NCBI RefSeq assembly: GCF_013407935.1
Contig: NZ_JACBZU010000001.1
Coordinates: forward strand, 496,001-560,000
From: Allomuricauda sp. ARW1Y1
GTDB taxonomy: Bacteria; Bacteroidota; Bacteroidia; Flavobacteriales; Flavobacteriaceae
Length of the DNA stretch: 64,000 bases
Reading direction: 5' to 3'
Below the pieces are notes generated by a model. That model ran no database searches, was not told where the DNA came from, and worked only from the letters and a program-made list of their open reading frames with translations. Position numbers and translations under genes: made by a program. Of the stretch, positions 5,690-59,717 are shown one piece after another (positions within the stretch are counted from its first letter, which is position 1; the number at the start of each line of letters is the position of its first letter).

Positions 5690-6400
5690 AGCATTGATTG
5701 AGAAATCCAGTGAAAAACTCAAGCATCAAGTTCATCAAAGGTCATTTCGAGATGAGGAGCGGAGTGACGATTGAGAAATCTGTTTGAAAACTCAAGTTCG
5801 AACTCAAAGGTCAAGTTCAAGTTTCAAGTTCAAAGTTTAAGGTTTAACCTCAAAAGGGTATTTCAAATGACAAAGAACCCTATTGGTGCTAATTCGTGAA
5901 ATTAGTGTCAACGCCCAATTGACTTCTGACTTCTTATTGTCGCTTCGACTCATTTCGACTACGCTCAATGACCGCCGCTCAGCGACCACTGCCGACTGAC
6001 TTCCGACTCCCGATTGATTTCTCACTTCGTTTCGAAATGACACCTTATCCAGCATTTTAGGTTTACTGCCCGCAGCCAATAACCAAGTCTATTTTCTATG
6101 GTCTTTTCTCCCCAGAGTCTTGATTCTTGGCTCTTGGCTCCTCACTGAACTAGGTTCTCGATACATTTTTTGTCTCTTTTTTGCAAAAACAGCCAAAAAA
6201 CACTCGAACTGACATCTTAAACCAAAACCCGAAACCCCTAACCCTAAACTTCCGACCTCGGACTTCGGACTCCCACAAAGATTTCTCGACTTCCCTCGAA
6301 ATGACATCATAACTCGCAACCTGAAACCCGAAACCCATAACTCGTAACTTACCACTCCCGACTCCCAAAATCCCATTCCCAACCCTTAAAATCCATCCCC
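5690..6400 (-). repeat. Heptanucleotide-based intergenic repeat, copy A
   Basis: This is a gene-free stretch of about 800 bp. Much of it parses into consecutive 7-base words, for example AACTCGC AACCTGA near 6310 continuing for about thirteen words to 6400, and CAAGTTT CAAGTTC near 5825. On the minus strand its order matches copies B (34960) and C (37580). A core of about 127 bp at 6087-6213 is nearly identical to 37720-37845. A TTCGACTACGCTCA palindrome-family motif lies at 5954-5967. Open frames in it look like translated repeats, not genes. Confidence 0.8.
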
Positions 6401-6407
6401 CAAAAAA

Positions 6408-6440
6408 ATCCGTCAGATCAAACAGGGCATCCGTCAGATC
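6408..6440 (+). promoter_or_regulatory. Direct repeats with 21-bp spacing, probable LytTR-type regulator site
   Basis: ATCCGTCAGATC occurs at 6408-6419 and again, identical, at 6429-6440. The 21-bp period places both copies on one DNA face two turns apart, as in AgrA/LytR-type sites. The site lies 67 bp before the ATG of the following gene and recurs at 37516 and 59665. Confidence 0.65.
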
Positions 6441-6507
6441 GCACCAAATTATTCTTCCCATTTGTGCCAACTTCTCCAAAATTCAGAAACAAAAGGAGGG
6501 TTTTCAT

Positions 6508-7354
6508 ATGGAAGAATTTCAACACATCATCATTACACGGTTCAATTTAAGGAACCATCAATGGACCAATCGAACCAAAAACGACACTCCCATTTTAACG
6601 GAGTCTTGGCTAGAGGATCGTTTTGATTTATTTGAGAACTTTTGTTTTCTCTCGGTCAGGAACCAAACCAACACCAATTTTCAATGGTGGGTGTTTTTTG
6701 ATACCGAAACACCAATGCGTTTTAGGGACCGCATAAGCGAATTCGAACGGAGATTCCACCGCTTCACAGCGCTATTTGTGGATGGGATGGACGCTTTTTT
6801 GCCTGCGGTTCAACACAGGTTGGCGTTGTGTAAAGCGCCATACATTATGACCAGCAGATTGGACAACGATGATTGTTTGCACAAAGATTATGTTCAAAGT
6901 GGTGCAGCAACAGTTTGCCCATCAAACGTACTTGGCTTTGGATATTATTGACGGGTTTACCTTGCAAGTGCAGCCCGAAGTGAGGCTAGGGTACCGAAGA
7001 CATTTGTACAATCCGTTCATTACGCTGATCGAGGAGAATGTGAATGCCAAATCGGTTTGGGATCGGACGCACAGTGACTGGAAAAAGGAAAAGCGCCTTA
7101 AACGTATCAAAGGGGAAAGGTTGTGGATGTCGGTAATCCATCATGACAATAAAGTGAACGAATATCATGGCTTTGGCACTCCCGATTTTGACGATACTTT
7201 AATGGATTTCGGCATTAGGGGCGCAAAGAAGAGCGAATTGCGAGAGCGCCTTACCCACTCCAAAAGGCTCAGTTTTAAATATTGGTGCGAGGCCATACTT
7301 TACAATGGATTCAAGGACTTCAAAAAAACAATAGGGCTATACTCTTACAAATAG
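6508..7354 (+). pseudogene. Putative rhamnosyltransferase-like glycosyltransferase, frameshifted
   Basis: Two frames join into one protein of about 281 residues. The first (6508 to about 6897) has HIIITRFNLR near the start, FDTETP, and SRLDNDDCLHKDYV, a DxD-like nucleotide-sugar site. The second continues with VQQQFAHQTYLALDIIDGF and ends at 7354 with KKTIGLYSYK. Dropping one A of the AAA at 6896-6898 restores DYVQVVQQQFAHQ, so there is a single +1 error. It may be a true inactivating mutation or a sequencing error. The arrangement resembles the family of putative rhamnosyl transferases (PF11316-like). AAAGGAGG ends 8 bp before the ATG, an unusually strong Shine-Dalgarno for this phylum. LytTR-like repeats lie upstream. 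Confidence 0.7.
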
Positions 7355-35782: not shown

Positions 35783-37453
35783 TTATGGGCAATTGGGGTC
35801 TACACCAGCGTCTTGGATGACCCATCCATTTTCTCCAATGAGAAAAGTGTTGCGCGCAAGTAAAGTTCCAATGTTACCACAATACGTGAGCTCAGTAGCT
35901 CCCAAGGTAATATTATTCGGAATGTTATCGGCACCCTTATTGCCCCATCCTGATAAAGTGGCACTATAGTTTTCCGGGCTCATCCCACAATTGTAGAGCA
36001 TGTCAGTCATATTGGTGACACTACTGATGTCCCAAGCTCCCAAACTTTGGTCGAAAGCATGGGTTCCTCCCTCATTGTAGAACATAAAGGACATATCCGT
36101 TACATTACTGGTATCCCATGAACTTAAGTCTTGGTTAAAAGTATGAATTCCTCCTCCCTCATTGTAGAAAATAAAGGACATATCCGTTACATTACTCGTA
36201 TCCCATGAACTTAGGTCTTGGTTGAAAGCATATTCTGCTCCCCCATTGTAGAACATAGAGGACATATCCGTTACATTACTGGTATTCCATCCGCCTTCGG
36301 TTTGGAACAAAGGTTGGTTAAAGGCATGGGCATCTTCAAACATTCCAGACATATTGGTTACATTGCCAGTATCCCAACCACCAATATCTCCGTTGAATAT
36401 GTTGGAACCATGAAACATATCGTGCATATTTTTAGTCTCTGACAAATCAGGACTGTCAGTAGCGCTGAATTCAACCAGTTTTGTGCAAAATTTAAACGCA
36501 TATTCCATATTCTGCCATTTTTGAGTGCCCCATTGAACCACGTCAATTATAAAAAGTCTTCCTGAAATCACGGGAAAATCGGGATCCCACATTTTAAATG
36601 CAGGAAAATTCCCTTTTATGGCCACAGTGTAGGTTCCAGCATTTTGATAAACGTGGGTTGGATAAAGATCATCCTGGGTCAACCCAGCTTCAACTGTTCC
36701 ATCTCCCCAGTCTATGGTATAATTATATTCATAGGTATATGGATAGGTACCAATGTTCAATTCTTCTCCCGGAGTATCTATATCAAACTTTAGTATTAAG
36801 GAAGCAGGGTCCTCAAACAGGGTATCGATGACATTGGTCACTTTTACGGTCACTGTAAACTCCACGGGCTCGTTGGTGCCGTCGCTCACAGTAAGCGTTA
36901 ACGTATGCTCGGTGGCGGTCTCAAAGTCAAGGTTCTTGCCCTCGGCCAAGGTAATTTCACCGTTCTCGGCCACTTGGAAGAGTTCGCTCTCGTCGGTCAC
37001 CAGGGCAAAGGTCAGTTCGTCGTCCTCGGGGTCACTGCCTTCTACGGTGCCTACCACGGTCTGGTCCTCGGCCACTTCAATGCTCTGGTCTGCCGCGGTG
37101 GGCGCTTCGTTTACATCGGTCACGGTAAAGTCCTTGGCGCTTATGGCGGTATTCCCGCCTACGGTCACGGTCACCTTGGCCGTGATGGCACCTGTGGGCA
37201 CGGTGGCCTTGAGCTGGGTGGCCGTAGCAGCGGTTACGGTAGCCGTAGCGGTGCCAATCTTTACGGTGTTGCTCGCCACCGTGGTGCTAAAGTTGGTACC
37301 GTTAATGGTAATTTCAGTGCCCACTGGCCCGGATTCGGGGGTGAAGTTGGCAATGGTCGGCGCAGCTGCCGGAGGTGCTGGGTCGTCGTCCTTTCCACAG
37401 GACCACATTACGGTAATGGCCAAAAGCGACCATAACAATTTTCTCAATGTCAT
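35783..37453 (-). CDS. BspA-like surface lipoprotein with TIG, cadherin-like and DUF285 repeats
   Basis: The 556-residue precursor has a lipoprotein signal (RKLLWSLLAITVMWSC, Cys at 19). Then come an IPT/TIG domain (PTIANFTPESGPVGTEITI, about 33-110), a cadherin-like domain (EAPTAADQSIEVAEDQTVV, about 117-205), a PKD-like part with YTIDWGDGTV, and DUF285 leucine-rich repeats (FNQDLSSWDTSNVTDMS, about 330-500). BspA-type proteins are surface adhesins. The middle repeats are near-identical at DNA level. The gene lies between direct copies of repeats B and C, has LytTR-like sites 63 bp upstream, and its 5' half is more GC-rich than the 3' half, suggesting a mosaic, horizontally assembled gene. 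Confidence 0.88.
   Translation of the reverse strand: MTLRKLLWSLLAITVMWSCGKDDDPAPPAAAPTIANFTPESGPVGTEITINGTNFSTTVASNTVKIGTATATVTAATATQLKATVPTGAITAKVTVTVGGNTAISAKDFTVTDVNEAPTAADQSIEVAEDQTVVGTVEGSDPEDDELTFALVTDESELFQVAENGEITLAEGKNLDFETATEHTLTLTVSDGTNEPVEFTVTVKVTNVIDTLFEDPASLILKFDIDTPGEELNIGTYPYTYEYNYTIDWGDGTVEAGLTQDDLYPTHVYQNAGTYTVAIKGNFPAFKMWDPDFPVISGRLFIIDVVQWGTQKWQNMEYAFKFCTKLVEFSATDSPDLSETKNMHDMFHGSNIFNGDIGGWDTGNVTNMSGMFEDAHAFNQPLFQTEGGWNTSNVTDMSSMFYNGGAEYAFNQDLSSWDTSNVTDMSFIFYNEGGGIHTFNQDLSSWDTSNVTDMSFMFYNEGGTHAFDQSLGAWDISSVTNMTDMLYNCGMSPENYSATLSGWGNKGADNIPNNITLGATELTYCGNIGTLLARNTFLIGENGWVIQDAGVDPNCP
36071..36328 (-). repeat. In-frame tandem repeats in the BspA-like gene
   Basis: Three units begin near 36071, 36158 and 36242, with periods of 87 and 84 bp, and differ at only a few bases between the first two. 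Each encodes about 28-29 residues around SSWDTSNVTDMSF. The periods are multiples of three, so unit gain or loss would keep the frame. Confidence 0.8.
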
Positions 37454-37515
37454 AATACTAGATTTTTAGATAAATAAGGAGCAATATGCTTCATTTTGGG
37501 TTTACAAAAGGGTAC

Positions 37516-37548
37516 GATCTGACGGATGGTGCTTCTGATCTGACGGAT
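37516..37548 (-). promoter_or_regulatory. Direct repeats with 21-bp spacing, probable LytTR-type regulator site
   Basis: GATCTGACGGAT occurs at 37516-37527 and again at 37537-37548 (on the minus strand ATCCGTCAGATC twice). The repeats are identical to those at 6408-6440, in the same orientation relative to the downstream start, here 63 bp away. Confidence 0.65.
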
Positions 37549-37579: not shown

Positions 37580-38280
37580 AATGAGATTTTAGAAGTTGGG
37601 AGTTAGGAGTTTAGAGTTACGTGTTTCGTGTTTCGTGTTGCGAGTTATGGGTAAAAAATCGGGAATCAGTGTGCAGTTTGCAGTACGCAGTTGAAATTGT
37701 TGGTTTTGTAAGAGGGTTTGTCAGTTCGAGTGTTTTTTGGCGGTTTTTGAAAAAAAGAGACAAAAAATGTATCGAGAACCTAGTTCAGTGAGGAGCCAAG
37801 AACCAAGAGCCAAGACCCAGGAGAGAAAAGACGATAGAAAATAGACGGGAATAGATGAGGAGTTATGGGATACGTGTTTCGGGTTGCACGATGTGATTCA
37901 AAGAGCAGTTGGCACTAATTTCACGAATTGGCACGAATAGGCTTCTTTGTCATTTCGAACGAATGTAAGAAATCTGTCGGGAGTCCGAAGACCGAAGTCG
38001 GGAGTTTTGAGTTGCGTGTTTCGTGTTGCGAGTTAGGATGTCATTTCGAGCGCAGTCGAGAAATCTATCGGGAGTCAGTCGGCAGTGGGCAGTTGGCAGT
38101 TGACACGAATTTCACGAATTGGTTCTTTGTCATTTGAAATACCCTTTTGACGTTAACCCTTAAACTTTGAACTTGAAACTTGAACTTGAAACTTGCACTT
38201 GACCTTTGAGTTTGAACTTGAGTTTTGCAAAGAGATTTCTCCATCGTCACTGCGTTCCTCATGTCGAAATGACAAGAAAC
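37580..38280 (+). repeat. Heptanucleotide-based intergenic repeat, copy C
   Basis: The 1028-bp gene-free stretch 37454-38481 is mostly this repeat. Words such as CGTGTTT CGTGTTT CGTGTTG CGAGTTA near 37620 and GAGCCAA GAACCAA GAGCCAA near 37795 keep 7-bp register. The core 37720-37845 differs from copy A at roughly a dozen positions. It ends with CTCATGTCGAAATGAC, as does B. From 38281 to 38481 I see no recognisable feature. Confidence 0.8.
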
Positions 38281-59164: not shown

Positions 59165-59593
59165 TCAGGCCGACATGTTCATTTTTTCACTGACCTTGGC
59201 CAAGCTCCATTGTACGGCATCTTCCAAATCGGAAAACTGCTTGATTTTGTTTCTGAAGAACATCTTTTCCAAAATAACACTGGCCAAACCGCTTTTATTA
59301 TAGGCCACAATGGAGTAGAACTCTAGATGATGTCGGTTTTTGTAGAACTTGAGCCAGTCCGTGGGCACCACGGAGTAGTCATGGATTCGATTGCTGATGT
59401 AAGCCACAGGTTTATCCTTTCCTAAAATTTCGTAGGCCACGCTGATTATTTTTTCGGCCTTGTCCCAATCGAAAGTGGCACCTTCACTCATTTCGGAGAT
59501 GACCAATCCATCAAAAAAGTAAAAGACACCGAATTCGTACTCCCGGACCTCCTTTATTTTTTTAAAAATTGCCAAATCCCTTACCTTTTGCAT
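59165..59593 (-). CDS. Hypothetical protein with SpoIIAA/STAS-like features, under a LytTR-like site
   Basis: I do not recognise a named family in this 142-residue protein. The alternating strand-helix pattern (FGVFYFFDGLVISEMSEG, KPVAYISNRIHDYSV, FYSIVAYNKSGLAS) resembles small SpoIIAA-like proteins seen in Flavobacteriia. No signal peptide or membrane helix. Upstream it has an exact -7 element (59629-59636) and three 21-bp spaced direct repeats, so its expression is probably activator-dependent. It lies 8 bp from the convergent rimK gene. Confidence 0.65.
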   Translation of the reverse strand: MQKVRDLAIFKKIKEVREYEFGVFYFFDGLVISEMSEGATFDWDKAEKIISVAYEILGKDKPVAYISNRIHDYSVVPTDWLKFYKNRHHLEFYSIVAYNKSGLASVILEKMFFRNKIKQFSDLEDAVQWSLAKVSEKMNMSA

Positions 59594-59628: not shown

Positions 59629-59636
59629 CAAAGGTA
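59629..59636 (-). promoter_or_regulatory. -7 promoter element
   Basis: On the minus strand this reads TACCTTTG, an exact TAnnTTTG match 35 bp before the start. No TTTG is present at -33; instead the direct-repeat site begins 29 bp upstream, the position expected for an activator that replaces -33 contacts. Confidence 0.6.
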
Positions 59637-59664: not shown

Positions 59665-59717
59665 GATTGACCGATGCGCCTTCCGAATTGACGTATGGGC
59701 CTTTTCAATTGACGGAT
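59665..59717 (-). promoter_or_regulatory. Three direct repeats with 21-bp spacing, probable LytTR-type regulator site
   Basis: GATTGACCGAT (59665), AATTGACGTAT (59686) and AATTGACGGAT (59707) are spaced exactly 21 bp. On the minus strand they read ATMSGTCAATY, akin to the LytTR half-site and to the repeats at 6408 and 37516. Orientation relative to the gene is the same at all three loci. Confidence 0.6.

Follow-up and report, generated by a model that had tools for sequence, protein, structure and literature searches.

In Allomuricauda sp. ARW1Y1 (G000, 3.53 Mb), head-to-tail arrays of 21-bp direct repeats very probably form the operator part of a single, genus-wide class of activator-dependent promoters that together constitute a regulon; this judgement concerns the promoter class and not the protein that binds it. 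About 33 such arrays lie upstream of genes in this genome, mostly in the orientation of the gene that follows. They stand at a fixed distance from a -7 element, recur throughout the genus, and precede genes of which many encode surface lipoproteins.

Three of the arrays fall within the window, i.e. the whole 64,000-nt stretch of this genome that was analysed. The arrays, their -7-like elements and their target ORFs are as follows.

6408..6440, + strand: two-unit 21-bp array, two identical ATCCGTCAGATC words
6468..6475, + strand: weak -7-like element CAACTTCT, at the class offset from the array at 6408-6440
6508..6951, + strand: target ORF, N-terminal part of a putative rhamnosyl transferase (PF11316)
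35783..37453, - strand: target ORF, BspA-like lipoprotein with TIG, cadherin-like and DUF285 domains
37481..37488, - strand: -7-like element CATATTGC, at the class offset from the array at 37516-37548
37516..37548, - strand: two-unit 21-bp array, two identical ATCCGTCAGATC words
59165..59593, - strand: target ORF of 142 aa, without a Pfam match
59629..59636, - strand: exact -7 element TACCTTTG, at the class offset from the array at 59665-59717
59665..59717, - strand: three-unit 21-bp array of the related words ATCCGTCAATTG, ATACGTCAATTC and ATCGGTCAATCG

Positions, words, period and gene orientation all agree with the initial annotation, which had described three 21-bp direct-repeat sites placed 58-75 bp upstream of start codons. 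At each site the array and its gene share a strand, and the distances to the ATG are 67 bp (ORF 6508-6951), 62 bp (ORF 35783-37453) and 71 bp (ORF 59165-59593). The exact -7 element that had been noted beside the repeats at 59665 was recovered as TACCTTTG; CAACTTCT and CATATTGC are NAnnTT forms weaker than this, and the offset is the same at all three sites. The predicted functions of the targets held for the glycosyltransferase (rhamnosyltransferase-like, with an apparent frame break) and for the BspA-like protein, while the supposed STAS-like protein gave no Pfam match even at E<=10. The rhamnosyltransferase-like target (6508-7354) seems to be split by the frame break: PF11316 matches the first half only, in ORF 6508-6951, and ORF 6869-7354 continues in another frame. 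Degenerate 7- and 14-bp word repeats (e.g. GTTTCGT, GAGTTACGTGTTTC) are also present in the intergenic DNA at about 6200-6400 and 37590-37650, adjoining two of the arrays.

A lone 12-mer is unremarkable in the window, and it is the paired 21-bp design that stands out. Exact ATCCGTCAGATC 12-mers occur four times, as the two pairs at 6408-6440 and 37516-37548, and single 12-mers with up to two mismatches number 16, compared with a shuffle mean of 9.1 (a count of 16 was reached in 1 of 100 shuffles). A 69-position profile of the promoter class, trained with nine other arrays of the same genome and without the window's own sites, matched the three sites alone at E<=1 (4 rows). An Rfam scan of the window at gathering thresholds gave no match.

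Across G000 the unit reads ATCCGTCA-AYYC or GATC-AAA-nn-GGGC. The pattern TCCGTCA-N14-TCCGTCA, with up to two mismatches, gave 86 matches (43+43), 30 of them exact, while the reversed pattern gave 20 (7+13). By eye, 52 of the 86 were grouped by their common 21-bp unit into 31 arrays, the other 34 (5 with one mismatch, 29 with two) being left out as chance-like; a profile search added two further arrays, at C6:50193 and C7:20260. A strict pair, ATCCGTCA-N13-ATCCGTCA with at most one mismatch, was found 22+22 times in this genome against 0+0 for its reversed control.

Promoter architecture was read from an alignment of 160 arrays from 30 Flagellimonas genomes, 31 belonging to G000 and 129 to 29 others. 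The latter comprise 29 plus 100 taken among the matches listed (G007 is absent, and G018 and G034 contribute one array each), and all 160 were retained, including a few that resemble chance matches in coding sequence. Two units are present in 109 arrays, three in 48 and four in 3. Aligned on the last TCCGTCA, the inner unit has the consensus ATCCGTCAAyycAAAnngggC and the last unit ATCCGTCAATT, followed by A39 nn T42 T43; the spacer CAAA..GGGC is conserved in the inner units, whereas its CAAA, the second box, is not conserved in the last unit. Counted over all 160 arrays rather than profile-selected ones, NAnnTT occurs at offset 38 from the last unit in 101 and at offset 37 in 25, where the median over offsets 12-109 is 5; among G000 arrays it is at the class offset in 22 of 31. 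The sigma-ABfr -7 element is thus represented in the reduced form NAnnTT. Its full form TAnnTTTG, the -7 consensus in Bacteroides and Flavobacterium johnsoniae (PMC7366714), is seen at the class offset or one base earlier in 19 of the 160.

A -33 word (TTTG) was sought at offsets 9-30 of the 160 arrays and is not enriched there; in F. johnsoniae a -33 motif could not be identified (PMC7366714). The support for an activator that would work at these promoters without a -33 element comes from geometry: an upstream array, a fixed -7 and no enrichment of TTTG. It is improbable that the arrays are the operators of a repressor instead. LytTR proteins can act in that way, as PlnD represses on the same repeats that the activator PlnC uses (PMC2714321), but the arrays leave the core promoter uncovered, lying before it at a fixed distance, and this position, together with the unenriched TTTG, indicates activation rather than repression.

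The arrays are also tied to start codons. For 138 arrays the sequence extends at least 590 bp to the front and 600 bp beyond; 109 of these are followed within 20-150 bp by the start of an ORF of at least 100 aa on the same strand and 22 by one on the opposite strand, so a motif unrelated to starts is not what was found. The median distance from array to ATG is 69 bp (150 of 160 arrays); 10 of the 160 lack an ORF by the rule used, ORFs having been called by simple rules and not by a gene finder.

Both this orientation bias and the base-exact -7 offset would be unexpected for a neutral repeat element spreading between genes with no regulatory role, a reading that appears barely tenable. It draws on the identical 21-mers that precede unrelated genes in G000, where two 21-mers each occur in 5 arrays of 4 target families, and on spacers being more alike within than between genomes. 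Before non-homologous targets, spacer likeness is 0.67 within a genome and 0.59 between genomes (0 of 1000 label shuffles reach this, kinship uncorrected); without G000 the values are 0.63 and 0.59 (3 of 1000 shuffles, kinship again uncorrected). Either the units spread or are homogenised, or the binder of each species has its own taste.

In the window's genome and its relatives, paired words 21 bp apart were in total far above the reversed control and mostly upstream of genes. The strict pair was found in 44 of 60 genomes of the genus (320 matches in total), and its reversed control in 9 of 60 (37 matches), exceeding the real pattern in G025, G029 and G050. In each of the 16 genomes without a strict pair (strict-zero genomes), the sequence-only profile R1 finds 6-27 matches at E<=0.05, while the same search of 24 outgroup genomes of other genera gave 0 matches in 18 and 1-2 in 6. 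Of the 81 sequences in R1, 8 come from six of the strict-zero genomes (G002, G021, G028, G043, G048, G058); the other ten supplied no training sequence, yet also hold 6-27 matches. The remaining 73 training arrays were picked for carrying at least two of A39, T42 and T43, so that the profile contains the -7 by construction, and the drifted arrays L311 and L319, having been aligned one base out of register, were left out of it. The strict pattern is therefore the wrong measure of array absence. Before BspA-like genes of the strict-zero genomes, ten drifted arrays were recognised by eye; 9 of 10 genomes searched have such genes, though an array was not seen in every one, and A39 and T42 T43 are kept in 7 of the 8 that were aligned in register.

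Outside the genus, just 3 of 148 genomes of other genera hold a strict-pattern match, one apiece, and one of these lies inside a simple repeat. A profile search over 149 genera of the family gave 39 matches in G000 (several per array) and a single weak match in each of 11 of the 148 others (E 0.0016-0.0082, with stricter filters and rough E-values), some of which could be real. As profile matches fill the strict-zero genomes and are near-absent elsewhere, the presence of the regulon throughout Flagellimonas/(Allo)muricauda is strongly supported, and in its present form, judged from these searches, it seems to be confined to that genus.

Individual memberships of the regulon turn over. Conservation of the array upstream of orthologues proved poor for ORF 59165-59593, with a profile match at 2 of 16 loci, strong at L420 (F. 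marinaquae) and weak at L428; 11 of the 16 loci are in Flagellimonas, and several of these 11 keep just one unit-like stretch.

The largest group of targets by BLAST linkage comprises 46 arrays in 14 genomes. A Pfam scan of two members showed both to be lipoproteins of the BspA-like (DUF285) type that carry cadherin or TIG domains, and the remaining members are assigned as BspA-like from linkage and sequence. Other targets are collagen-like lipoproteins, small outer-membrane barrels, a ComM-like Mg-chelatase protein, a Kelch protein, the putative rhamnosyltransferase and AraC-type regulators. By the pattern used, a lipobox-like start is found in 96 of 144 targets of at least 80 aa (15 of 29 for G000 targets alone) compared with 9 of 61 window genes; as related paralogues are counted, the contrast is weaker than its Fisher p of 4e-12 suggests. 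At one locus (L186; G005 C1:1024730) an array precedes a short ORF that resembles a YefM-type antitoxin.

As to the binder, one of the conserved LytTR regulators is the most likely of the candidates considered, a tentative assignment falling slightly short of an even chance. The initial annotation had proposed a LytTR-type regulon, and its regulon part stands: the arrays are genome-wide, gene-oriented, at a fixed distance from the -7 and found across the genus; its naming of LytTR was premature. A LytTR site has two direct repeats, each 9-11 nt long and separated by a spacer of 11-13 nt, and the family shares no single consensus (PMC4847170); the 21-bp period and 9-bp core of the 160 arrays fit a LytTR half-site with a 12-bp spacer. 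The closest likeness is to PlnC/PlnD of Lactobacillus plantarum, which read TACGTTAAT repeats spaced by 12 bp just before the -35; in both systems tandem 9-bp cores with 12-bp spacers directly precede the core promoter, and TCCGTCAAT of the arrays has 7 of 9 bases in common with the PlnC/PlnD LytTR consensus (PMC2714321). PlnC/PlnD act at a single bacteriocin locus, on five promoters that have -35 and -10 boxes (PMC2714321), whereas the Flagellimonas arrays serve dozens of scattered promoters with a Bacteroidota -7, often have three units, and have a conserved spacer. Among other LytTR proteins, YpdB reads two GGCATTTCAT words (PMC4847170), and the proximal repeats of AgrA, centred near -60 (PMC4227749), lie further upstream than the arrays as far as that source describes them. 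The conserved CAAA..GGGC spacer counts against a plain LytTR site, because the 9+12 design does not require it.

The 21-bp period is not specific to LytTR, as AraC-type sites share it, and on sequence grounds the repeat geometry cannot decide between the two families. A less probable reading is that the same promoter class is served by an AraC-family activator (an orphan AraC or a hybrid two-component protein) which would recognise the two-box unit ATCCGTCA ... CAAA on direct repeats two turns apart. The HTCS (AraC-domain) operators of Bacteroides thetaiotaomicron, of the same phylum, are predictions by comparative genomics in which, like the arrays, direct repeats are about 21 bp apart (21 bp on average), one consisting of two 12-bp sites and a 9-bp spacer (PMC3878776). 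These lie, in the account cited, in sugar-utilisation loci beside their own regulator gene (PMC3878776), while the arrays precede scattered surface lipoprotein genes and have no regulator gene tied to them genus-wide. XylS at Pm offers a second likeness: this activator recognises a pair of 15-bp direct repeats that lie upstream of the core promoter and each contain a box A and a box B, and it works with RNA polymerase (PMC5481539). In the arrays, the core of the inner units spans 15 bp and includes a second conserved box, and AraC-type genes are among the targets. But the promoter-proximal unit lacks the second box, contrary to the XylS pattern of both boxes in both repeats (a pattern that may not hold for every AraC-type site), and LytTR is thereby mildly favoured over AraC. 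Further points against an AraC-type binder are that none of the 20 other AraC loci scanned carries an upstream array (a single hit falls downstream of its gene), and that a non-exhaustive search found no AraC gene both present in all 60 genomes and tied to arrays.

One AraC-type target, the small membrane-AraC gene behind array A27, is a very improbable binder regulating its own promoter. A profile match lies directly upstream, on the same strand, at 19 of 20 loci of this gene (none at L355; the arrays of L341 and L358 were in the training set), and strict matches per genome have a median of 3.5 in the 30 genomes with the gene and 1.0 in the 30 without (Mann-Whitney p 0.004, kinship uncorrected). 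Against this, the gene is not found wherever arrays are: it is absent from 30 of 60 genomes (cut-off >=52% over >=185 aa), including the array-rich G007 (18 strict matches), G034 (17), G052 (15), G051 (9) and G056 (8), and in G052 it and the two next genes are missing between conserved neighbours while the next array remains. These absences, and the loss in G052, led to its rejection as sole binder, and for that reason it is read as a conserved target that would pass the signal on. In G000 the genes that come after the small membrane-AraC gene are SusC- and SusD-like, again between conserved neighbours (L037, 2702-9535; compared with L456).

Returning to LytTR regulators as the preferred candidates, 70 loci were scanned for arrays, 10 from G000 and 60 drawn from the 134 LytTR matches that six other genomes contain. 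A single locus, L095, has arrays above noise, while L279 and L309 show weak partial hits (E 0.04 and 0.12); no ordinary LytTR gene with an array was found among the 70, which counts against a LytTR binder. At L095 in G000 (1489-2808; C1 about 823.6-824.9 kb) two arrays lie upstream of a gene in which DUF5723, of an outer-membrane-type protein (residues 47-338), is fused in frame to LytTR (343-436). Its orthologue in the same-species genome G018 is a whole, ordinary response regulator of 250 aa, and the fusion in G000 would be either a real rearrangement or an assembly join. As a general binder this protein was rejected: it stands under two arrays in G000, but there as a DUF5723-LytTR fusion; its best match in G035, a genome with 8 strict matches, reaches 43% identity, and no match appears in G022 or G049 at E<=1e-20. 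In G057 the LytTR end of the orthologue is joined to another N-terminal part (L248, 1498-2664), which resembles an aminotransferase class IV protein.

Presence and absence of LytTR orthologues were no route to the binder. The regulators L086, L087, L088 and L090 are present alike in array-rich and strict-zero genomes, and the contrast is empty because the strict-zero genomes carry drifted arrays. All four have counterparts in all six genomes, those of L090 being 97.8-99.6% identical and those of L086, L087 and L088 76-95%. L090 (1081-1773; G000 C2, about 223.8-224.5 kb) is a LytTR response regulator encoded between arrays A16/A17 and A18, and its high conservation is a lead toward a candidate binder.

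For the activator-dependent promoter class, the following mechanism can be proposed, in which activation, binding as a dimer or oligomer and co-expression of the targets are inferred. Two to four protomers of one activator would line one face of the double helix at intervals of two helical turns. The final half-site, ATCCGTCAATT, ends 28 bp before the TAnnTT of the -7 and, if TA corresponds to -12/-11, covers about -51 to -41. From there the bound activator would replace the missing -33 contact and recruit the primary RNA polymerase. The result would be the joint switching on of mostly surface genes, i.e. BspA-like/cadherin and collagen-like lipoproteins and small barrels, and the local AraC regulator beside the SusC/SusD-like pair would be switched on as well.

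The regulon is new, and its design is of a known kind, an activator docked just upstream of RNA polymerase. Nothing on this motif, and no text with two of the three motif strings together, was found in the open-access literature, outside which most subscription papers lie. A bolder and rather doubtful extension is that this is a genus-private, genome-wide surface-display regulon, in which units would be added, lost and homogenised among unrelated promoters and new surface lipoproteins would come to join one switch. Its binder may be an orphan LytTR protein; if so, it would represent a global LytTR regulon in Bacteroidota, of which no description was found in the open-access literature.

To our knowledge, an operator has been defined for few Bacteroidota regulons other than those of sugar utilisation. 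Here a rigid promoter definition (repeat, spacing and -7 offset) can be read from many genomes of one genus; it names the surface proteins that are seemingly controlled, and with it a small experiment is enough to look for the activator. The resemblance among units of one genome further provides a natural example of a regulon whose growth may proceed through the spreading of operators.
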